A stretch of DNA of 61,409 nucleotides. Source: Rhodovarius crocodyli. GTDB lineage: Bacteria; Pseudomonadota; Alphaproteobacteria; Acetobacterales; Acetobacteraceae. Positions 8,773 to 20,690 of this stretch are shown here, in pieces. Numbering within the stretch: the stretch's first letter is position 1; every line of letters starts with the position of its first letter. The notes below the pieces were generated by a model. The model worked only from the letters and a program-made list of their open reading frames with translations, was not told the origin of the DNA and did no database searches. The position numbers and the translations under genes are program-made. The stretch is taken from NCBI RefSeq assembly GCF_004005855.1, contig NZ_SACL01000017.1, forward strand, positions 1-61,409, given 5' to 3'.

Positions 8773-10410
8773 ATGGCCTATACGGTTGGGGAACTCGTGG
8801 CCGAGTTCCTGCCGGCGGTGGGGGTCGACACCGCCTTCGGCATCGTCTCCGTCCACAACATCCCGATGCTGGATGCCCTGAGCCAGCGCAACGCCGTGCG
8901 CTATGTCATGGCGCGCGGCGAGATGGGCGGGGCGCATATGGCCGATGCCTATGCGCGCGTGGCCCGGCATCTGGGCGTGCTGTTCAGCTCCACCGGCCCG
9001 GGGGCGGCCAATGCGGTGCCGGGCCTGGTCGAGGCACGCTTCGCCGGCAGCCCCGTCCTGCACATCACCGGCCAGACGGCCACGAAATTCATCGATCGGG
9101 ACATGGGCACCGTGCATGACGTGCCGGGCCAGACCGACATGCTGGAGGCCGTCTGCAAGCGCGCCTTCCGCGTGCGCGCCCCGCAGGAGGCGCTGCCCAC
9201 CCTGATGGCGGCCGCGACCGCCGCCCTGACGCCGCCCATGGGCCCGGTCAGCGTGGAGGTGCCGATCGATATCCAGCGCATGGAGGTCGCGCGGCCGGAT
9301 TGGGCGAACATCGCCATCTCCCTGCCGCCCCCGCCGCCGCCGGAGGCCCAGGGCCTGGCCGCCGCCATCGCCGCGCTGCGCGCCGCGAAGCGCCCGATGC
9401 TGTGGCTGGGCAACGGTGCGAAGGGCGCGCGCGAGGCGGCGCTGCGCCTGCTCGACCTCGGCTTCGGCGCGGTCAATTCCTGGAACGGCCGCGGCGTGAT
9501 CGCGGAGGACGACCCGCGCACGCTGGGCGGGCTGCATGGCGCGGGCGCACCGCCGGTGGCCGAATTCTACGGCAGCTGCGATGCCATGCTGGTGGTCGGC
9601 AGCCGGCTGCGCGGGCATGAGACGCTGGATTTCTCGCTGAAGCTGCCCAAGCCGCTGATCATCGTGGACATCGACCCGGCGGCGAATGGGCGCACCTATC
9701 AGCCCGACATCTTCGTCCAGGGTGATGCGAGCCTGACGATGAACGCCATCGCCGACGCGCTGGAACCGAAAGGCGACGCCTTCCAACGGGACCTCGCGGC
9801 GCTGAAGTCCCGCGCCGTGGCGGAGTTCGCCTCCACCCTCGGCCCCTATGAGAGCTTCCCGGCGACGCTGCGGAAAGTGATGCCCAAGGATGCGCTGTGG
9901 GTGCGCGACATCACCATCAGCAACTCCGCATGGGGCAACCGCATCTTCCCGGTGCTGGGGCCGAATGACGCGGTGCATCCGGTGGGGGCGGCGATCGGGC
10001 CCGGCCTGCCGCTGGGCATCGGGGCCGCCATGGCGGGGAAGGGGCGCAAGGCCATCGCCATGGTGGGTGACGGCGGCTTCGCCATGAACATGCCGGAGCT
10101 GTGGACGGCGGTGCAGGAACAGGCCGAGCTGATCGTCATGGTCATGAACGACAAGGGCTATGGCGTGATCCGGCACATCCAGGATTATGCCGCCGGCCGG
10201 CGCTTCTACCACGACCTGCAGGGGCCGGACCTGATGCAGCTGGCGCAGCTGGCCGGGCTGCCGGGGCTGCGCGTCTCCAGCGTCGCGGATTTCGGGCCGA
10301 TGCTGGAAAAGGCCTTCGCCACCAAGGGGCCGGTGCTGCTGGAGATCGACATGGCGACGATCGGCGAGCACCCGCCCTATGCGCCCTATAACCAGGCGCG
10401 GAAGGCCTGA
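8773..10410 (+). CDS. Thiamine-diphosphate-dependent enzyme, acetolactate synthase-like
   Basis: 545 residues with the three-domain layout of the decarboxylase/acetolactate synthase superfamily: N-terminal pyrimidine-binding domain with the catalytic Glu (E50 in ARGEMGGAHMADAYAR), a central Rossmann-type domain (about 190-330), and the C-terminal ThDP domain with GDG at 432-434 through NDKGYG at 459-464. The STGPGAANAV and TGQTATKFIDRD segments are typical of the family. There is no adjacent IlvN small subunit, so it is probably a catabolic ThDP lyase or decarboxylase rather than true IlvB. It follows the two Bug genes by 66 bases and its ribosome site lies in a hairpin. Confidence 0.85.
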   Translation: MAYTVGELVAEFLPAVGVDTAFGIVSVHNIPMLDALSQRNAVRYVMARGEMGGAHMADAYARVARHLGVLFSSTGPGAANAVPGLVEARFAGSPVLHITGQTATKFIDRDMGTVHDVPGQTDMLEAVCKRAFRVRAPQEALPTLMAAATAALTPPMGPVSVEVPIDIQRMEVARPDWANIAISLPPPPPPEAQGLAAAIAALRAAKRPMLWLGNGAKGAREAALRLLDLGFGAVNSWNGRGVIAEDDPRTLGGLHGAGAPPVAEFYGSCDAMLVVGSRLRGHETLDFSLKLPKPLIIVDIDPAANGRTYQPDIFVQGDASLTMNAIADALEPKGDAFQRDLAALKSRAVAEFASTLGPYESFPATLRKVMPKDALWVRDITISNSAWGNRIFPVLGPNDAVHPVGAAIGPGLPLGIGAAMAGKGRKAIAMVGDGGFAMNMPELWTAVQEQAELIVMVMNDKGYGVIRHIQDYAAGRRFYHDLQGPDLMQLAQLAGLPGLRVSSVADFGPMLEKAFATKGPVLLEIDMATIGEHPPYAPYNQARKA

Positions 10411-11404: not shown

Positions 11405-12286
11405 TCACACCCTGGGCAGGGCCTGCACCCGGCACTCGCCCACCTGCAGCGACTGACCCTGAACGCGCAGCAGGGCCGCGCGGATGAGTCCGCGCGACAG
11501 AAGGCGTTCCGCCACGCGCGCCCCCCGCTCCAGCGCCAGCAGCACCAGCGGCGGCGGCAGCGCGCGCACGCCGGTGGTCACGAGGATGTCACCCAGGTCG
11601 CTGTCCGCATCCAGCGAGGCGGCGGGCGCGCGCTGCACGGCCGGGTGGTCGGCGTCGGTGGCGTTGGCGATGATGGTGGCGGCCGCATCGGCATCCGCCG
11701 CGCGCGTGGCCAGCACCGTCACCGCATCGGCCACCCCGCGGGAGAAGCTGCGCCCCGGCCAGCCGCTGGTGGCGATGCCGCCGATGCCGTCGCCCGCCGC
11801 CAGCACCGCCAGCCCGTCGGGCCGCCCGTCGCCCAGGTCCGCGCACAGCCCCACGCGCAGGCTGGACCCGCGCGCCAGGAACACCGCGATATCCCCGCCA
11901 TTGTTCACATGGGCGGCCTGGATGCCCGGCACCTCGGTGATGGCGGCCAGCACATGCTCGGCCACCGCGCCCGCCACGGCGGCCATCGGGGTGATGAAAT
12001 CGGCGCGGTGGGGCCAGCATGCTTCGGCCATGCGCCGCGCGACGGGGTGGCGCAGCACGGGCAGGGGCCCGTCGAGGCGCGCGCGCAGCAGCGGCAATTC
12101 CTCGCACATCGCCGCCAGCAGCCCGTTCATGCGCGTGATGGCGGCCTGCTGGGCCGCGCGCACGGCCACGGGCTTGCCCTCGATGCCGATCACCAGGCTG
12201 ATCGGGCCTTCCTCGATGCAGAACCTGCCATCGGGCAGGTCCTTGGCGCCCAGCAGGGGGGGAGTTACGCCGGGGCGCCAGGCCAT
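11405..12286 (-). CDS. UPF0280 family protein, ApbE-like fold (putative flavinyltransferase)
   Basis: 293 residues. UPF0280 proteins belong to the ApbE (FMN transferase) superfamily. The ApbE-type signatures are visible: NNGGDIA at 128-134, an ATSGW segment at 172-176, and an ADADAAAT segment at 197-204 matching the metal/FMN-binding A-D-A-x-A-T box. The ATG at 12286 lies inside the end of the upstream reductase-like gene (22-base overlap), so the two are translationally coupled. The closest characterised relative of that neighbour, 6-hydroxynicotinate reductase, carries covalently bound flavin; I therefore infer that this protein attaches the flavin. Family assignment is firm, the activity is inference. 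Confidence 0.85.
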   Translation of the reverse strand: MAWRPGVTPPLLGAKDLPDGRFCIEEGPISLVIGIEGKPVAVRAAQQAAITRMNGLLAAMCEELPLLRARLDGPLPVLRHPVARRMAEACWPHRADFITPMAAVAGAVAEHVLAAITEVPGIQAAHVNNGGDIAVFLARGSSLRVGLCADLGDGRPDGLAVLAAGDGIGGIATSGWPGRSFSRGVADAVTVLATRAADADAAATIIANATDADHPAVQRAPAASLDADSDLGDILVTTGVRALPPPLVLLALERGARVAERLLSRGLIRAALLRVQGQSLQVGECRVQALPRV

Positions 12287-13752
12287 GGCAGGTCCCCACG
12301 AAGCGACTCGCGCCGGGCGGTGTCGCCGTACTCCTTCAGGATCTCAGCGAGCGGCACCGCCTGGGCGGTGTGGCCGCCGATCGCGGCATAGAGATCGGCG
12401 GGCATCGTGAACTCCAGCGGCGCCACCAGGGCGGGGGTGGGGACATAGCCGAAGGAACCGTCGGGCATGTCCAGGACGTCCGCCATGATGGTGATGCCGC
12501 CGCCGGGCCACAAGATGCAGGGCGCGCCGCCCATGGTCAGGCGGATCTCACCCGACTGCACCTTGCGCGTCAGGTGGATGGGGTTTTCGGTCACGCCGGC
12601 GCGCAGGGACCCGCCAGCCCCCGCGATGAACAGCACGGAGGTCATCGCCGGCTCGCAGTTCTCGCCGATGCGCTCGACCGTGGCGCGCACCGCGTCGGGC
12701 ATGCGGGCGGGGATGGGCTTCAATGCGTCGTCCAGCTCGAACCAGGCCGAATCCTCGCCGGTGGTGCTGACCATCAGCATCCGCATGCCGGGCCAGGCCA
12801 GCTTGGGGTCGATGCTCTCGATCGCGTCCAGCGGGTTCTCGATGGTGGTGCCGCCCCAGCCCGCGCCGGGCTCCGCCACCTGGAAATAGCGGCCGGGGGT
12901 GGAGCGGCGGCCGCGCACCCGCACGCCGCCCGGGCGCATGTCCAGGCATTTGCCGGCCTGGTGTTCCGTCAGCACGCCGGTGATGTGGTCGTCGATCACC
13001 ACGACCTCATCGACATGGCCCTGCCATTGCTGGGCGAAGATGCCGATGGTGGCGGCCCCGCAACCCACGCGCATCCGCGCCTCGGGCACGCCGTTCACGA
13101 TGGGGGCGCGGCCGGCCTGGATGGTGAGCTTCGCGCCGCCCTCGATCTCGACATCGATGGCTTCCTTGTTGGACAGCGCGAGGACGGCCTGGCACGTCAC
13201 CTGGCCTTCCTTCTTGGAGCCGCCCGTCAGGTGGTGCACGCCGCCGAGCGACAGCATCTGGCTGCCGTATTCGGCGGTGGTGACATGGCCGATCACCTCC
13301 CCCTGGTAGCGCACGGCGGCGGTCTCGGGCCCCAGGTGCCGGTCGGTGTCGATCTTCACCTTCACGCCGGCGTAGCTGAAGATGCCCTCCGTCACGACGG
13401 TCACGGTATCCACGCCGCGGAACTCGGTCTGCACGATGAAGGGGGCGGGCTTGTAGTCGGGGTAGGTGGTGCCCGAGCCGATGGCGGAAACGAAGTATTC
13501 CTCAGCCGGCGCGATGCCGCCCGCCCAGTCGCGGGAGGCTTCGAGGAACGGCACCACGCGGCCATCCTCGGCCACCGTGCGTTCCAGCAGCACAAGCGGC
13601 TCGGTGCGGACCAGCCTTCCGTCCTCATTGGCATAGCGTTGGCAGGCGCCGGCGCGGCCTGGGCGGATGCGGCACAGCACCGGGCAGGCGTCGCAGCGCA
13701 CGATGCCCTCATTGCCCTCGCGCGCACCGAAAATCGCGGTCCTGTCGCTCAT
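12265..13752 (-). CDS. 6-hydroxynicotinate reductase-like iron-sulfur flavoprotein
   Basis: 495 residues from the ATG at 13752 (aaggag seven bases upstream). The N-terminus has four cysteines spaced C20-x2-C23-x3-C27-x9-C37 (CDACPVLC...GAC), suited to one [4Fe-4S] cluster. The rest follows the family of 6-hydroxynicotinate reductase (Hnr) of Eubacterium barkeri, which reduces 6-hydroxynicotinate and holds covalent flavin and Fe-S clusters. I recognise the family from the conserved EGIFSYAGVKVKIDTD, GGVHHLTGGSKKEG and MRVGCGAATIGIF regions. Only one obvious cluster motif is present, so it may be simpler than the anaerobic enzyme. No other nicotinate-pathway gene is nearby, so the true substrate is open. 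Confidence 0.8.
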   Translation of the reverse strand: MSDRTAIFGAREGNEGIVRCDACPVLCRIRPGRAGACQRYANEDGRLVRTEPLVLLERTVAEDGRVVPFLEASRDWAGGIAPAEEYFVSAIGSGTTYPDYKPAPFIVQTEFRGVDTVTVVTEGIFSYAGVKVKIDTDRHLGPETAAVRYQGEVIGHVTTAEYGSQMLSLGGVHHLTGGSKKEGQVTCQAVLALSNKEAIDVEIEGGAKLTIQAGRAPIVNGVPEARMRVGCGAATIGIFAQQWQGHVDEVVVIDDHITGVLTEHQAGKCLDMRPGGVRVRGRRSTPGRYFQVAEPGAGWGGTTIENPLDAIESIDPKLAWPGMRMLMVSTTGEDSAWFELDDALKPIPARMPDAVRATVERIGENCEPAMTSVLFIAGAGGSLRAGVTENPIHLTRKVQSGEIRLTMGGAPCILWPGGGITIMADVLDMPDGSFGYVPTPALVAPLEFTMPADLYAAIGGHTAQAVPLAEILKEYGDTARRESLRGDLPWPGAPA

Positions 13753-13882: not shown

Positions 13883-14458
13883 ATGCCCGTGCAGATCCGC
13901 AAGTTCATCCTGCTGACCGAGGAAGTGCTGGAGGAGGGCGGATGCCCCCTGCCGGAGCCGCGACGGCGCGCCATCGCGGCCTGCGTGCTGAAGAACCCCT
14001 TCGCCGGGCATTTCGAGCATGACCTGGCGCCGCTGATCGAGGCCGGCGAGGCGCTCGGCGCGGAGCTTGCCGCGCGCGCCCTGGCGGCGCTGGGCACCGA
14101 GGCCGATGCCTATGGCAAGGCCGCGATCGTGGGGGAGGGAGGCGAGCTGGAACATGCCGCCGCCCTGCTGCACCCCAAGATGGGCGCGCCGGTGCGGGCC
14201 GCGCTGAACGGCGGTGCGGCGCTCATCCCCTCGGCCAAGAAGCGCGCCGGCATGGGGGCCACCATCGACATCCCGCTCGGCCACAAGGACGCGGCCTTCG
14301 TGCGCAGCCATTTCGACGCGATCGAGCTGCGCGTGACCGACGCGCCCATGGCGGGCGAGATCGTGCTGGCGCTGGCGCTCGCGAAGGGCGGCCGCCCCTG
14401 GCCGCGTATCGGCGGGCTCAGCGCCGAGGAAATCGAGGGGCATGACGGGCTGCGCTAG
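13883..14458 (+). CDS. Amino acid synthesis family protein (PF06684)
   Basis: 191 residues. The sequence (VQIRKFILLTEEVLEEGG at the start, NPFAGHFEHDL near 45, GEGGELEHAAALLHPKMG near 92, and TIDIPLGHKD near 133) fits the PF06684 family, annotated only as amino acid synthesis and without a proven reaction. It is divergent from the reductase-like gene, with a 130-base shared control region (13753-13882). In other proteobacteria I recall this family beside UPF0280 and Hnr-like genes, which suggests a shared pathway. A GTCTGCGCAGAC perfect palindrome lies 14 bases after its stop (14472-14483). Confidence 0.8.
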   Translation: MPVQIRKFILLTEEVLEEGGCPLPEPRRRAIAACVLKNPFAGHFEHDLAPLIEAGEALGAELAARALAALGTEADAYGKAAIVGEGGELEHAAALLHPKMGAPVRAALNGGAALIPSAKKRAGMGATIDIPLGHKDAAFVRSHFDAIELRVTDAPMAGEIVLALALAKGGRPWPRIGGLSAEEIEGHDGLR

Positions 14459-14679: not shown

Positions 14680-15454
14680 GTGAGCGATTTCATCCTGGAA
14701 ACCGAGGGCATGACCAAGGAGTTCCGCGGCTTCGCGGCGGTCTCCAACGTGAACCTCAAGGTCAGGCGCGGTTCCATCCACGCGCTGATCGGACCCAATG
14801 GCGCGGGCAAGACGACCTGCTTCAATCTGCTCACGAAGTTCCTGCCGGTCACGCGCGGGCGCATCACCTATGACGGGCGCGACATCACCGCGATGAAGCC
14901 CGCCGAGGTCGCGCGCCTGGGCCTGGTGCGCAGCTTCCAGATCTCCGCCGTGTTTCCGCATTTCACCGTGATGGAGAATGTGCGCGTGGCGTTGCAGCGG
15001 CAGCGCGGCAACAGCTTCGATTTCTGGCGCTCCTCCTCCATGCTGAAGCAGTACAACGACCGCGCGATGGAACTGCTGGCCGATGTGGGGCTGACCCAAT
15101 ACGCGGAGCTCGCGGCGGGCCAGCTTCCCTATGGCCGCAAGCGCGCGCTCGAGATCGCGACGACGCTCGCGATGGAGCCGCAGATGATGCTGCTGGACGA
15201 GCCCACCGCCGGCATGACGTCGGAGGATGTGGACCGCATCGTCGCACTGGTGAAGCGCGTCTCGCAGGGGCGCACCGTGCTGCTGGTCGAACACAACCTG
15301 AAGGTGGTCGAGGGGCTGTGCGACCGCATCACCGTGCTCGCGCGCGGGCAGGTGCTGGCCGAGGGCGACTATGCCTCCGTCTCCCGCAATCCGGAGGTGA
15401 TCGCGGCCTATCTGGGCGAGGACCCGCAGAGCGTGGGTGCGCCGGAGACCGCGC

Positions 15455-15462
<8 letters not shown>
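14680..15462 (+). CDS. livG: Branched-chain amino acid-type ABC transporter ATP-binding protein (LivG-like)
   Basis: 260 residues. The start is GTG at 14680, with aggagaggag directly upstream. Walker A is GPNGAGKT (38-45), followed by the Q-loop (VRSFQIS), a signature of the LivG form (LPYGRKRALEIA) and Walker B (MMLLDEPTAGM), then the switch His in VEHNLKVV. It powers the importer encoded by the next five genes. The 220 bases upstream hold no gene and probably the operon promoter. Confidence 0.92.
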
Positions 15463-16159
<697 letters not shown>

Positions 16160-16193
16160 CGCCCCACCAGGTCATGCAGGAGGAACACAGGAA

Positions 16194-17435
16194 ATGAACT
16201 TCGATCGCCGCACTCTTCTCGGTGCCGCCGCCACCGCTCCTGTCTGGGGCGCGGCACCCTTCCGGTCGGCCCGGGCCCAGGCCGCCAACACCATCAAGAT
16301 CGGCGTGCTGAACGACCAGTCCGGCACCTACCGCGACCTGTCGGGCGGCGGTTCCACCCAGGCGGTGCGCCAGGCCATCAAGGACAGCGGCATCGAGGCC
16401 CGCGGCATCACGGTGGAGGTCGTGCAGGCCGACCACCAGAACCGCCCGGACGTCGGCAGCACCGTGGTGCGCCAGTGGATCGACCGCGACGGCGTGGACG
16501 TCATCATGGACGTGCCGACCTCCTCGGTCGCGCTGGCCGTGAACACCATCGTGCGTGAGAAGAACAAGGTCTTCATCAACTCGGGCGCCGCGGCCTCCGA
16601 CCTGACCGGCACCGCCTGCTCGCCCAACACCGTCCACTGGACCTACGACACCTGGATGCTGGCCAAGTCCACCGGCGGCGCCATGGTGCGCGCGGGCGGG
16701 CAGCGCTGGTTCTTCATCACCGCCGACTATGCCTTCGGCCATGCGCTGGAGCGTGACACCAGCACCTTCATCCGCAATGCCGGCGGGCAGATCCTGGGCA
16801 GCGTGCGCACGCCCTTCCCGGGCACGACCGACTTCTCCTCCTTCCTGGTGCAGGCGCAGGCGTCCCGCGCGCAGGTGATCGGCCTGGCCAATGCGGGCGC
16901 CGACACCATCAACAGCATCAAGCAGGCGGCGGAATTCGGCATCACCCGCCGCGGCGTGAAGCTCGCCGGTCTGCTGGTGTTCATCACCGACGTCCATAGC
17001 CTCGGCCTGCAGACGGCCCAGGGCCTGGTGCTGACCGAGAGCTTCTACTGGGACCTGAACGACCGCACCCGCGCGCTGACGCAGCGCCTGGGCAACATGC
17101 CCGGCAACGTGAAGCCCAGCATGGTGCATGCAGGCTGCTATGCCGGCGCGCTGCACTACCTGAAGGCGGTGGCCGAGATGGGCGTCGCCGCCGCCAAGGC
17201 CAGCGGCGTCGAGGCCGTGAACAAGATGAAGGCGATGCCCACCGAGGACGACGCCTTCGGCGCGGGCTCCATCCGCGCGGACGGCCGCAAGCTGCACCCG
17301 ACCTATCTGTTCGAGGTGAAGTCCCCGGCCGAGAGCCGCGCGCCGTGGGACTACTACAAGCTGCTGGCGACGACCCCGGCCGAGGAGAGCTTCCGCCCCC
17401 TCGCCGAGGGCAGCTGCCCGCTGATCAGGAGCTGA
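16194..17435 (+). CDS. ABC transporter substrate-binding protein, LivK/Peripla_BP_6 type (copy 1)
   Basis: 413 residues from the ATG at 16194 with aggaggaacacagg just upstream. The N-terminus (MNFDRRTLLGAAATAPVWGA) has a twin-arginine-like signal ending near ARAQA. The mature protein has the two-lobe type I fold: IKIGVLNDQSGTYRD at the start and DHQNRPDVGSTVVRQWIDRDGVD. It ends CPLIRS, as does its neighbour. It belongs to the aromatic/branched-chain solute group of LivK-like proteins. It is about two-thirds identical by eye to the next gene, so the pair arose by tandem duplication. Confidence 0.92.
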   Translation: MNFDRRTLLGAAATAPVWGAAPFRSARAQAANTIKIGVLNDQSGTYRDLSGGGSTQAVRQAIKDSGIEARGITVEVVQADHQNRPDVGSTVVRQWIDRDGVDVIMDVPTSSVALAVNTIVREKNKVFINSGAAASDLTGTACSPNTVHWTYDTWMLAKSTGGAMVRAGGQRWFFITADYAFGHALERDTSTFIRNAGGQILGSVRTPFPGTTDFSSFLVQAQASRAQVIGLANAGADTINSIKQAAEFGITRRGVKLAGLLVFITDVHSLGLQTAQGLVLTESFYWDLNDRTRALTQRLGNMPGNVKPSMVHAGCYAGALHYLKAVAEMGVAAAKASGVEAVNKMKAMPTEDDAFGAGSIRADGRKLHPTYLFEVKSPAESRAPWDYYKLLATTPAEESFRPLAEGSCPLIRS

Positions 17436-17442
17436 CGCCGAC

Positions 17443-17471
17443 CGCGGCGCGGGAACAGGGCCCGCGCCGCG
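17443..17471 (+). other. Strong hairpin between the tandem binding-protein genes
   Basis: cgcggcgcggg (17443-17453) and cccgcgccgcg (17461-17471) form a perfect 11-base-pair G/C stem with a 7-base loop. There is no T-tract, so it is more likely an mRNA-stabilising or partial-attenuation structure that raises expression of the upstream binding protein. A second small stem (ggggg/ccccc, 17533-17547) lies nearer the next gene. Confidence 0.6.
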
Positions 17472-17572
17472 ATGCGCCACCAGGTTGAGGAGGAATGACC
17501 GCCCACAGAAGGCGGCGCCCTCCGGAACATAAGGGGGATCAACCCCCGCATCTGGGAACGGAGGAAACCACC

Positions 17573-18796
17573 ATGCTGACGGAGCGTAGAACATTGCTGA
17601 CGGGCGGTGCCGCACTCGCGGCGCTGCCGGCCATCCCCATGGCGCGCGCGCAGGCCAACACGCTGCGCATTGGCGTGCTCACCGACATTTCAGGCACCTA
17701 CCGCGACCCGACCGGGCCCGGCAGCGTGTCCTGCACGGAGCAGGCGGTGGCCGAGTTCCAGGGCAGGGGCCTGAATGTCGAGGTCCTGCGCGCGGACCAC
17801 CAGAACCGCCCGGATGTGGGCGCCAACATCGCGCGGCAATGGTTCGACCAGGGCGTGGACGCGATCGTGGATGTGCCCACCTCCTCGGTGGCGCTCGCGA
17901 TCAACCAGATCGCGCGCGAGAAGAACAAGGTCTTCCTGAACTCGGGCGCCGCGACCAGCGACCTGACCGGGCCCGCCTGTTCGCCCAACACGGTCCATTG
18001 GACCTATGACACCTACATGCTGGCGAAATCGACCGGCGGCGCGCTGACGCGCTCGGGCGGGGACAGCTGGTTCTTCATCACGGCGGACTATGCCTTCGGC
18101 CACGCGCTGCAGCGCGACGCCACCAGCTTCATCGAGGCCGCCGGCGGCCGCGTCGCGGGTTCCGTGCGCTATCCGTTTCCGGCGACGACCGATTTCTCCT
18201 CCTTCATGGTGCAGGCCCAGGCCAGCCGCGCGAAGGTGCTGGGCCTGTGCAATGCCGGCACCGACACGCTGAACACCATCAAGCAGGCGCGCGAGTTCGG
18301 GCTGACCAGCCGGATGAAGATCGCGGGGCTGCTGCTGTCGATGGCCGAGGTCCACACGCTCGGCCTCGACACGGCGCAGGGGCTGGTGCTGACCGAACCC
18401 TTCTACTGGAACGCCAACGACCGCACCCGCGCCTTCACCACCCGCGTGCGGCCGCGCCTGTCCAATGGCTGGCCGCCCACGCAGATCCAGGCCGGCTGCT
18501 ATGCCGTGACGCTACATTACCTCAAGGCGGTGGCCGATATGGGTGTCGCGGCCGCCAAGGCGAGCGGCACCGATGCGGTCGCGCGCATGAAGGCGATGCC
18601 GACCGACGATGACGCCTTCGGCGCGGGCATGATCCGCCCCGACGGCCGCAAGATCCATCCCACCTATCTGTGGGAGGTGAAGTCACCCCGGGAATCCAGC
18701 GGACCCTGGGACTATTACAAGCTGGCCGCCACCACCCCCGCCGAGGAGGCCTTCCGGCCGATGGCGCAGGGCGGCTGCCCGCTGGTTCGCTCATAA
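17573..18796 (+). CDS. ABC transporter substrate-binding protein, LivK/Peripla_BP_6 type (copy 2)
   Basis: 407 residues from the ATG at 17573, preceded by ggaggaaacc. Twin-arginine-like signal (MLTERRTLLTGGAALAALPA...ARAQA), then TLRIGVLTDISGTYRD and the same landmarks as copy 1 (DHQNRPDVG, NSGAATSDLTGPACSPNTVH, WFFITADYAFGHAL, WDYYKL, CPLVRS). Differences concentrate in the middle lobe, so the two may accept related but not identical ligands. It sits between copy 1 and the permeases in one operon. Confidence 0.92.
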   Translation: MLTERRTLLTGGAALAALPAIPMARAQANTLRIGVLTDISGTYRDPTGPGSVSCTEQAVAEFQGRGLNVEVLRADHQNRPDVGANIARQWFDQGVDAIVDVPTSSVALAINQIAREKNKVFLNSGAATSDLTGPACSPNTVHWTYDTYMLAKSTGGALTRSGGDSWFFITADYAFGHALQRDATSFIEAAGGRVAGSVRYPFPATTDFSSFMVQAQASRAKVLGLCNAGTDTLNTIKQAREFGLTSRMKIAGLLLSMAEVHTLGLDTAQGLVLTEPFYWNANDRTRAFTTRVRPRLSNGWPPTQIQAGCYAVTLHYLKAVADMGVAAAKASGTDAVARMKAMPTDDDAFGAGMIRPDGRKIHPTYLWEVKSPRESSGPWDYYKLAATTPAEEAFRPMAQGGCPLVRS

Positions 18797-18815
18797 GAAA
18801 TATCGAGGGAAGGGC

Positions 18816-19700
18816 ATGGACGAGATATTCGGAATACCCGCGCCGCTGCTGTTCGGGCAGTTGCTTCTGGGCCTCATCAACGGGGCCTTCTACGCGCTGC
18901 TCTCGCTGGGGCTGGCCGTCATCTTCGGCATGCTCAACGTCATCAACTTCACCCATGGCGCCCAGTTCATGCTGGGCGCCTTCGTGGCCTGGATGCTGCT
19001 GAACTGGCTGGGCATCGGGTACTGGGGGGCGCTGATCCTGGCGCCGCTGATCGTGGGGGCGTTCGGGATCATCCTCGAACGCCTGATGATCGCGCGATTG
19101 TACAAGCTCGATCACCTCTATGGCCTGCTGCTGACCTTCGGGCTCGGCCTTATCATCGAGGGGCTGGCGCGTAACGAATTCGGCAGCTCGGGCCTGCCCT
19201 ATCGCATTCCGGCCGAGCTGACGGGCGCCTGGGATCTGGGCTTCATGTTCATGCCCATCTATCGCGGCTGGGTGGTGATCGTGGCGATCGTGATGTGCCT
19301 GGCCACCTGGCTGGTCATCGAGAAGACCAAGATCGGCAGCTATCTGCGGGCAGCCACGGAAAATCCGGCGCTGGTCCAGGCCTTCGGCATCAACGTGCCG
19401 CGGATGATGACGCTGACCTACGGCGCGGGCGTGGCACTCGCGGCCTTCGCCGGCGTGCTGGCGGCGCCGATCTATTCCGTGAACCCGCAGATGGGTTCCA
19501 ACTTGATCATCATCGTCTTCGCCGTGGTCGTGATCGGCGGCATGGGCTCCATCTTGGGCTCGGTCGTCACCGGCTTCGGGCTCGGCGTCATCGAAGGGCT
19601 GACCAAGGTGTTCTACCCCGAGGCCTCCTCCACCGTGATCTTCGTGGTCATGGCCATCGTGCTGCTGGCCCGCCCCGCCGGCCTGTTCGGGAGGGCCTGA
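18816..19700 (+). CDS. livH: Branched-chain amino acid-type ABC transporter permease (LivH-like)
   Basis: 294 residues, almost entirely hydrophobic helices (about eight), with the family's GLINGAFYALLSLGLAVIFG start, NVINFTHGAQFMLGA and the cytoplasmic EAA-type loop around LRAATENPALVQAFGINV. gaggga precedes the ATG. It forms the inner-membrane channel with the LivM-like product. Confidence 0.93.
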   Translation: MDEIFGIPAPLLFGQLLLGLINGAFYALLSLGLAVIFGMLNVINFTHGAQFMLGAFVAWMLLNWLGIGYWGALILAPLIVGAFGIILERLMIARLYKLDHLYGLLLTFGLGLIIEGLARNEFGSSGLPYRIPAELTGAWDLGFMFMPIYRGWVVIVAIVMCLATWLVIEKTKIGSYLRAATENPALVQAFGINVPRMMTLTYGAGVALAAFAGVLAAPIYSVNPQMGSNLIIIVFAVVVIGGMGSILGSVVTGFGLGVIEGLTKVFYPEASSTVIFVVMAIVLLARPAGLFGRA

Positions 19701-19703
19701 GCG

Positions 19704-20690
19704 ATGGCCGCACCTGCTTCCGGTTCCTTCGAGGCGCTGGCCGCCGAGAACGAGGCGCTCTGGGGTTTCACCAAGCCGCAGCTCATCGCGCTCGGCCTCA
19801 TGCTGGTGGGCATCCTGGTGGCGCCCGCCATCCTGTATCCCATCTTCCTGATGAAGGTGCTGTGCTTCGCGCTGTTCGCCTGCGCCTTCAACCTGCTGAT
19901 CGGCTATGTCGGCCTGCTCAGCTTCGGCCATGCGGCCTATTTCGGCATGGGCGGCTATCTGGCGGGCCACGCCGCCAAGGCCTGGGGGCTGACGCCCGAG
20001 GCCTCCATCCTGATGGGTGGCCTGGCCGGCATGCTGCTGGGCTGGGTGATCGGCTGGCTCGCGATCCGGCGCCAGGGCATCTACTTCGCGATGATCACGC
20101 TGGCCATGGCGCAGATGGTCTACTTCTTCTGCGTGCAGGCGCCCTTCACGGGCGGCGAGGACGGCATCCAGGCCATTCCGCGCGGGCGGCTGTTCGGCAT
20201 GATCGACCTGTCCGCGGACACCACCATGTACTGGCTGGTGGCGGGCGTGTTCGTCGCGGGCTTCCTGTTCATCCACCGCGTCATCCACTCGCCCTTCGGG
20301 CAGGTGATGACCGCGATCCGCGAGAATGAGCCGCGCGCGACCTCGCTCGGCTATCGCGCGGAGCACTACAAGCTGATGGCCTTCGTGATCTCCGCCGCGC
20401 TGTCGGGTGTGGCGGGCGCGACCAAGGCCCTCGTCTTCGGCATCGCGACGCTGACCGACGTGTTCTGGACCATGTCGGGCGAGGTGGTGCTGATGTCCCT
20501 CGTCGGCGGGCTGGGCACGCTGTTCGGCCCGGTGGCGGGGGCCGCCATCATCATCACCATGCAGAACTACCTGGCCGAATACGGCGCCTGGGTGACGGTG
20601 ATCCAGGGCATCATCTTCGTGCTGTGCGTGCTGGTGTTCCGGCGCGGCGTGGTGGGTGAGATCGGGCGGTTCCTGAAGGTAAGGCTGTAA
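19704..20690 (+). CDS. livM: Branched-chain amino acid-type ABC transporter permease (LivM-like)
   Basis: 328 residues starting 3 bases after livH. Multiple transmembrane helices, the GYVGLLSFGHAAYFGMGGYL segment and the cytoplasmic loop AIRENEPRATSLGYR are characteristic of LivM. It is the last gene of the livGF-SBP-SBP-livHM operon; a block of GC-rich hairpins follows its stop. Confidence 0.93.
   Translation: MAAPASGSFEALAAENEALWGFTKPQLIALGLMLVGILVAPAILYPIFLMKVLCFALFACAFNLLIGYVGLLSFGHAAYFGMGGYLAGHAAKAWGLTPEASILMGGLAGMLLGWVIGWLAIRRQGIYFAMITLAMAQMVYFFCVQAPFTGGEDGIQAIPRGRLFGMIDLSADTTMYWLVAGVFVAGFLFIHRVIHSPFGQVMTAIRENEPRATSLGYRAEHYKLMAFVISAALSGVAGATKALVFGIATLTDVFWTMSGEVVLMSLVGGLGTLFGPVAGAAIIITMQNYLAEYGAWVTVIQGIIFVLCVLVFRRGVVGEIGRFLKVRL

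Follow-up and report, generated by a model that had tools for sequence, protein, structure and literature searches.

The hnr–UPF0280 locus

The stretch of DNA analyzed here (the window) comprises 61,409 nucleotides of contig NZ_SACL01000017.1 of Rhodovarius crocodyli (assembly GCF_004005855.1). On its minus strand it carries a gene for a 6-hydroxynicotinate reductase-like protein (Hnr) followed downstream by a gene of the family UPF0280 (COG2122), whose product passes the NCBIfam model NF003322 with 331.8 bits (cut-off 290). From the sequence alone, it had been predicted that the two genes overlap by 22 bases and that UPF0280 attaches flavin to Hnr (the original prediction). The overlap was confirmed, both frames being intact, and suggests translational coupling; it likewise measures 22 bases in L001, the closest named relative among the matches listed (G and L numbers label the genomes and loci compared). 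The features of the locus are given in Table 1.

Table 1. Features of the hnr–UPF0280 locus (positions in the window)
Feature	Position	Strand	Remarks
UPF0280 (COG2122) gene, proposed Hnr maturation factor (flavin transferase)	11405..12286	-	293 aa, intact frame, predicted ApbE fold
ADAAAT of UPF0280, residues 199-204	11675..11692	-	D200/T204 spacing matches the ApbE metal-site Asp/Thr
ATSGWPGRS of UPF0280, residues 172-180	11747..11773	-	S174 and G175 invariant; R179 in 47/50
NNGGD of UPF0280, residues 128-132	11891..11905	-	Counterpart of ApbE GGD/GGE
Overlap of hnr and UPF0280	12265..12286	-	22 bases, from gene coordinates
Hnr-like (6-hydroxynicotinate reductase-like) gene	12265..13752	-	495 aa, intact frame
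TTYPDYKPAPFI of Hnr, residues 95-106	13435..13470	-	Invariant in 55/55; candidate cofactor or flavin acceptor loop
Four-Cys motif of Hnr (C20, C23, C27, C37)	13642..13695	-	Invariant
AA_synth (PF06684) gene	13883..14458	+	Pfam match; frequent companion of the pair elsewhere
Branched-chain-type ABC transporter cluster	14680..20690	+	Two ATPases, two binding proteins, two permeases

Co-occurrence of Hnr and UPF0280

Three overlapping whole-genome samples were searched, drawn from the class (289 genomes), the phylum (398) and the close relatives (60); they follow kinship and are not independent. In the class and phylum samples, Hnr and strong UPF0280 matches coincided in the identical 44 and 32 genomes, respectively. 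Pooled, these gave 72 Hnr genomes from 45 genera; the two genes were neighbors in 71 of them, and in G266 they lay on different contigs. Among the close relatives, Hnr was found in 19 genomes and UPF0280 in 22; all 19 Hnr genomes contained UPF0280, which was adjacent in 16. With three of the 19 common to the 72, UPF0280 was present in 88 of 88 Hnr genomes and adjacent to hnr in 84. Such pairing (44/44 and 32/32) is far beyond chance; Fisher values ignore kinship and were set aside. The original prediction had proposed a survey of this kind and named UPF0280 residing mostly in Hnr-less genomes as the outcome that would speak against it. The opposite was observed, Hnr and strong UPF0280 matches coinciding throughout the larger samples and the two genes in 19 of the 22 UPF0280 genomes among the close relatives. 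The claim of pairing is limited to Pseudomonadota, the phylum covered by the whole-genome searches, and there we regard a dedicated UPF0280–Hnr partnership as highly probable.

The same arrangement was seen at the level of single loci. Among the best 80 of 590 confirmed Hnr loci (61–76% identity, mostly Proteobacteria), UPF0280 lay downstream in 79, and in the remaining one, L071, the contig stops about 65 bases past hnr. The genes overlapped in 36 of the 73 loci with both ends set, by exactly 4 bases in 22 of them; these figures depend on script-guessed start codons, a few of which are clearly too far upstream. Some of the non-overlapping loci contained a MarR gene between hnr and UPF0280. 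Of the plasmid records, 27 contained UPF0280 and 26 contained Hnr, at different E limits; the difference is a Hydrogenophaga plasmid. The distances of the two proteins were correlated over 49 loci (rho 0.53; the highest of 999 shuffles was 0.25), and this value was not used because shared ancestry would produce it anyway. Scans of viral contigs with the UPF0280 and Hnr alignments gave nothing confirmed. The weak Hnr matches in G381 (9.9e-4) and, as a second match, in G036 covered the four-Cys part only.

It should be noted that the pair was broken in two loci. In L124 (G063), a break near residue 249 divides hnr into two overlapping frames, and the UPF0280 gene that follows is intact; in L135 (G003), a draft of 520 contigs, UPF0280 lies in two pieces behind an intact-looking hnr. 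Either case may be an error or decay.

Active-site residues of UPF0280 and their loss without Hnr

The predicted structure of UPF0280 displays the full ApbE fold, and in its entirety this fold is that of FAD-using enzymes. The Pfam ApbE model (PF02424) scored 16.3 bits, under its gathering cut-off of 25.6. Using the ApbE metal ligands given in PMC4767422 and in the available part of PMC12052999, we found the metal-site Asp and Thr (DxxxT) and the active-site Ser of ApbE in UPF0280 as D200, T204 and S174. Residues N128, G131, D132, S174, G175 and D200 were invariant in the 50 aligned relatives, while T204 was kept in 48 and replaced by Ser in the other two. The ApbE-type signatures named in the original prediction are borne out as regards the fold, NNGGD, ADADAAAT (residues 197–204) and the Ser/Asp/Thr set; they are incomplete as regards the Pfam score and the segment with the catalytic His. 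No Cys was found among the conserved columns, those at positions 61, 90 and 148 being variable. Reading of the N-terminus, with no predictor run, revealed no lipoprotein signal.

Three of the 60 close relatives contained UPF0280 without Hnr. In G034 a contig ends within the gene and leaves 60 residues, too few for decay to be judged. The other two, G002 (206.5 bits, below the cut-off) and G007 (294.6 bits, above it), belong to the genus of the window itself. G007 (L126, 8197–12197) retains the order of the window, with a thiamine diphosphate (ThDP)-dependent enzyme, UPF0280, AA_synth and the transporter, and hnr is gone from between UPF0280 and AA_synth. The 50-row alignment has 33 invariant columns; 6 of them were changed in G007 and 12 in G002. 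Both genomes had changed S174 and S180 and had lost the metal-site T204 (replaced by Met and Ala), and D132 was changed in G002 as well. For comparison, 35 other UPF0280 proteins accompanied by Hnr, from genomes or plasmids, were examined; this number excludes L138 and L142, already in the alignment, and loci that repeat a single genome (L117, L122, L123). There were no changes in 31 of them, one in three and two in one, and the motif residues were never changed, though most of these proteins are less like that of the window than are those of G002 and G007. The broken UPF0280 of G003 was not counted; none of the columns covered by its two pieces was changed. Based on two genomes, then, the ApbE-type active site of UPF0280 appears to be kept only alongside Hnr.

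Weak UPF0280 matches in Hnr-less genomes were found in the class sample (G044, 1.2e-5; G178, 6.4e-9; G156, 7e-4) and in the phylum sample (G537, G593 and G665, 2.6e-4 to 7.6e-4); not being strong, these six do not enter the counts of 44 and 32. In G178 and G044, the two of them covered by the column comparison, S174 and D200 were changed. The relative in G178 (L105, 7982–8776) is degenerate, with neither the GGD nor the ADxxAT motif and no Pfam match.

Canonical ApbE was absent from the genome of the window (99.5% complete). It scored above the cut-off in 38 of the 72 Hnr genomes and was absent from 34, and the weak ApbE match in G464 falls inside UPF0280 itself. Hnr therefore does not depend on canonical ApbE.

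The Hnr-like protein

No Pfam or NCBIfam model matched the Hnr-like protein above its cut-off, and there was no significant sequence match in the PDB. The name Hnr rests on annotation, given to 17 of 26 plasmid records of relatives with 59–67% identity, and on the 42% identity between a Bradyrhizobiaceae homologue and the Eubacterium barkeri enzyme, as stated in the accessible part of PMC3511419. The product is probably a pyridine-ring-reducing enzyme.

Residues C20, C23, C27 and C37 are, judging by their conservation, probable iron–sulfur ligands, and their region weakly matches the corresponding part of AmmeMemoRadiSam enzymes. C187, C231 and C366 are also invariant. The E. barkeri Hnr is said to contain a covalent flavin and, reportedly, one [2Fe-2S] and two [4Fe-4S] clusters, whereas the Hnr of the window has one four-Cys motif.

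As the original prediction had noted, a DxxSGAT acceptor is missing from Hnr. Its nearest candidate, SGTT at residues 93–96, holds as a position, with T95 and T96 present in 55/55 proteins, and is less convincing as a motif, with G94 in 44 and S93 in only 13. The two Thr residues open the segment TTYPDYKPAPFI, which begins within a low-confidence loop of the Hnr model (residues 85–101, pLDDT <50). Its full conservation together with the uncertain structure would fit a loop that a cofactor orders or modifies.

Since COG2122 serves both Hnr and DUF39/HcyBio, homology between these two was also considered and found no support: with E values up to 1 allowed, hmmscan of the 55 Hnr proteins gave no HcyBio match, a DUF39 profile comparison not having been made.

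Gene cluster content and putative pathway

The AA_synth gene of the window starts 130 bases from hnr in divergent orientation, and elsewhere two such genes often stand in tandem beside the pair. The neighboring transporter, whose binding proteins were assigned by Pfam, ATPases by the LivG marker and permeases by reading of the open reading frames only, probably serves in substrate uptake. Beyond UPF0280 lies a ThDP-dependent enzyme (8773–10410; NF005470, 699 bits) preceded by two TctC-type binding proteins. A relative of it was found near the pair in one of the 80 best loci (L053), and it also adjoins UPF0280 in G007.

In annotated relatives, Hnr, UPF0280 and AA_synth are accompanied variously by a molybdenum hydroxylase, a ferredoxin–NADP reductase (FNR), HyuA/HyuB or an amidohydrolase, a branched-chain-type transporter and a MarR regulator. 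A marker census of 60 loci of at least 17 kb (from 92 examined, the window included) gave UPF0280 in all 60, molybdenum hydroxylase in 55, LivG in 50 and AA_synth in 48; HyuA (32), amidohydrolase (18) and FNR (6) were rarer. According to the part of PMC3511419 available, the nicotinate cluster of Azorhizobium/Bradyrhizobiaceae covers the first three steps and includes an ABC transporter and two conserved proteins of unknown function. The clusters of the relatives resemble it in content, with the first three enzymes, an ABC transporter and two proteins of unknown function. A locus like L117 (NicAB type, Hnr, UPF0280, AA_synth, ABC transporter, MarR, amidohydrolase) fits the published cluster, and UPF0280 would be one of its two unknown proteins. 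In the window, the pair, AA_synth and the transporter are present, and the molybdenum hydroxylase and other enzyme markers of the cluster were not found; therefore, the substrate is not fixed here.

Proposed function of UPF0280

The pairing is near-obligate, UPF0280 has an ApbE fold by prediction, its active-site residues are lost together with Hnr and the genome has no canonical ApbE. We propose that UPF0280 serves specifically in the maturation of Hnr, most likely by transferring flavin in the cytosol to an acceptor of a new kind, with a probability of about 0.53. A maturation factor is favored over a pathway enzyme because COG2122 is tied to one enzyme in each of two pathways (DUF39 and Hnr), and flavin transfer is the likeliest step in view of the ApbE fold and of the residues lost in the absence of Hnr. 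The transfer of FMN itself we infer.

The following sequence of events can be suggested. UPF0280, as a soluble cytosolic relative of ApbE, would take FMN from FAD using a metal ion and bond it to Hnr at a non-DxxSGAT site, the first candidate being the TTYPDYKPAPFI loop (T95/T96). Equipped with this covalent flavin and with an iron–sulfur cluster at its four-Cys N-terminus, Hnr would go on to reduce a hydroxylated N-heterocycle produced by a molybdenum hydroxylase. The electrons may come by a ferredoxin/NAD(P)H route, and the reduction would precede ring opening.

Among known systems, a cytoplasmic ApbE of Klebsiella acting with fumarate reductase is similar in being a cytosolic ApbE-type transferase for a soluble reductase; unlike UPF0280/Hnr, it is described in the available part of PMC12052999 as an ApbE and uses a classical DxxSGAT-type motif. 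From ApbE/Ftp/FmnB (PF02424), UPF0280 differs in its sub-cut-off score, in the missing H..DP.TG segment and in its partner, an apparently soluble reductase without DxxSGAT.

Several points weigh against flavin transfer by UPF0280. The ApbE segment H..DP.TG with the catalytic His (H257 in V. cholerae) is a gap opposite UPF0280 in the profile alignment. The conserved position nearest to it is Arg179 in 47 of 50 proteins and His in two, and DVU1097 (structure 2o34) has His after TSGxxG, at the place of this Arg; the comparison is of aligned sequences, with residues compared without structural superposition. The neighbor of the second metal, usually Lys/Glu in ApbE, is by eye an invariant Ala. On the side of Hnr, the classical acceptor motif occurs in none of the 55 proteins and no flavin-binding fold was recognized in the model; we infer the flavin of Pseudomonadota Hnr, its covalent link, its acceptor and the substrate of the enzyme. 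In G010, G014 and G035, both genes are present at separate places. The Hydrogenophaga plasmid pBPS33-1 (L116), examined as the plasmid only, has UPF0280 without Hnr and yet intact, with none of the 33 columns changed. Finally, PMC5764234 cites workers on COG2122 in whose judgment its homology with ApbE stops short of the flavin-binding region; they doubt flavin binding and suggest persulfide formation instead. The claim that UPF0280 flavinylates Hnr gains from the dedicated pairing, the fold and the decay without Hnr, and loses from the missing classical His and acceptor.

As a separate observation on L116, IS1071 lies directly upstream of its UPF0280 gene.

An alternative, which we consider unlikely, is that UPF0280 matures Hnr by delivering sulfur, persulfide or an iron–sulfur cluster, as proposed for methanogen COG2122. 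In the accessible portions of the two papers, homocysteine synthesis in Desulfovibrio depends on COG2122, whose fitness correlates with that of DUF39 at r = 0.98 (PMC5764234), and MA1715 is described as a sulfur trafficking protein needed for growth at low sulfide (PMC12068725). The four-Cys motif of Hnr and its invariant C187, C231 and C366 would also suit such delivery. However, UPF0280 has no conserved Cys, its whole predicted fold is that of FAD-using enzymes and the residues lost alongside Hnr are those of the ApbE-type metal/Ser site. Moreover, homocysteine-related COG2122 proteins (MA1715, DvMF_0044) have DUF39/HcyBio and NIL-ferredoxin as partners, both absent here: DUF39/HcyBio (PF01837) was found neither in the genome of the window nor in any of 299 Pseudomonadota genomes, this one included (0/299), with control genomes positive. 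The homocysteine partner is therefore unavailable to this UPF0280.

It is slightly less probable still that UPF0280 is a pathway enzyme acting on the Hnr product, for example in ring hydrolysis; this would yield co-occurrence without any modification, and the tie of COG2122 to one enzyme in each of two different pathways speaks against it. Least probable is that UPF0280 merely supplies FMN or hydrolyzes FAD as a pyrophosphatase, like Treponema Ftp, the Hnr flavin being non-covalent or self-attaching, for such a role alone would not call for a partner gene matched one to one with UPF0280.

With flavin transfer to Hnr as the preferred function, two questions meet in one two-gene system, namely the origin of the covalent flavin of Hnr and the chemistry of COG2122 proteins, whose function has so far come from genetics only in the literature examined. 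In the literature searched, the name UPF0280 was not found, papers naming COG2122 and those naming 6-hydroxynicotinate reductase did not overlap, and ApbE and "hydroxynicotin-" never occurred together.

More tentatively, and with considerable doubt, COG2122/UPF0280 might form a second class of FAD:protein FMN transferases, one that works in the cytosol, relies on another catalytic base and recognizes a new acceptor motif. Each subfamily would be devoted to a single redox enzyme, namely Hnr in Pseudomonadota and the DUF39 homocysteine synthase of methanogens and sulfate reducers. In that case, DUF39 enzymes would also carry an overlooked covalent flavin, and the presumed sulfur-trafficking role of MA1715 would be an indirect effect. 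For Hnr itself, transfer by UPF0280 would place a flavinylation site beyond the D-x-x-[ST]-G-A-[ST] rule, and a protein that may be among the two of unknown function in the aerobic reductive nicotinate cluster would gain a role.
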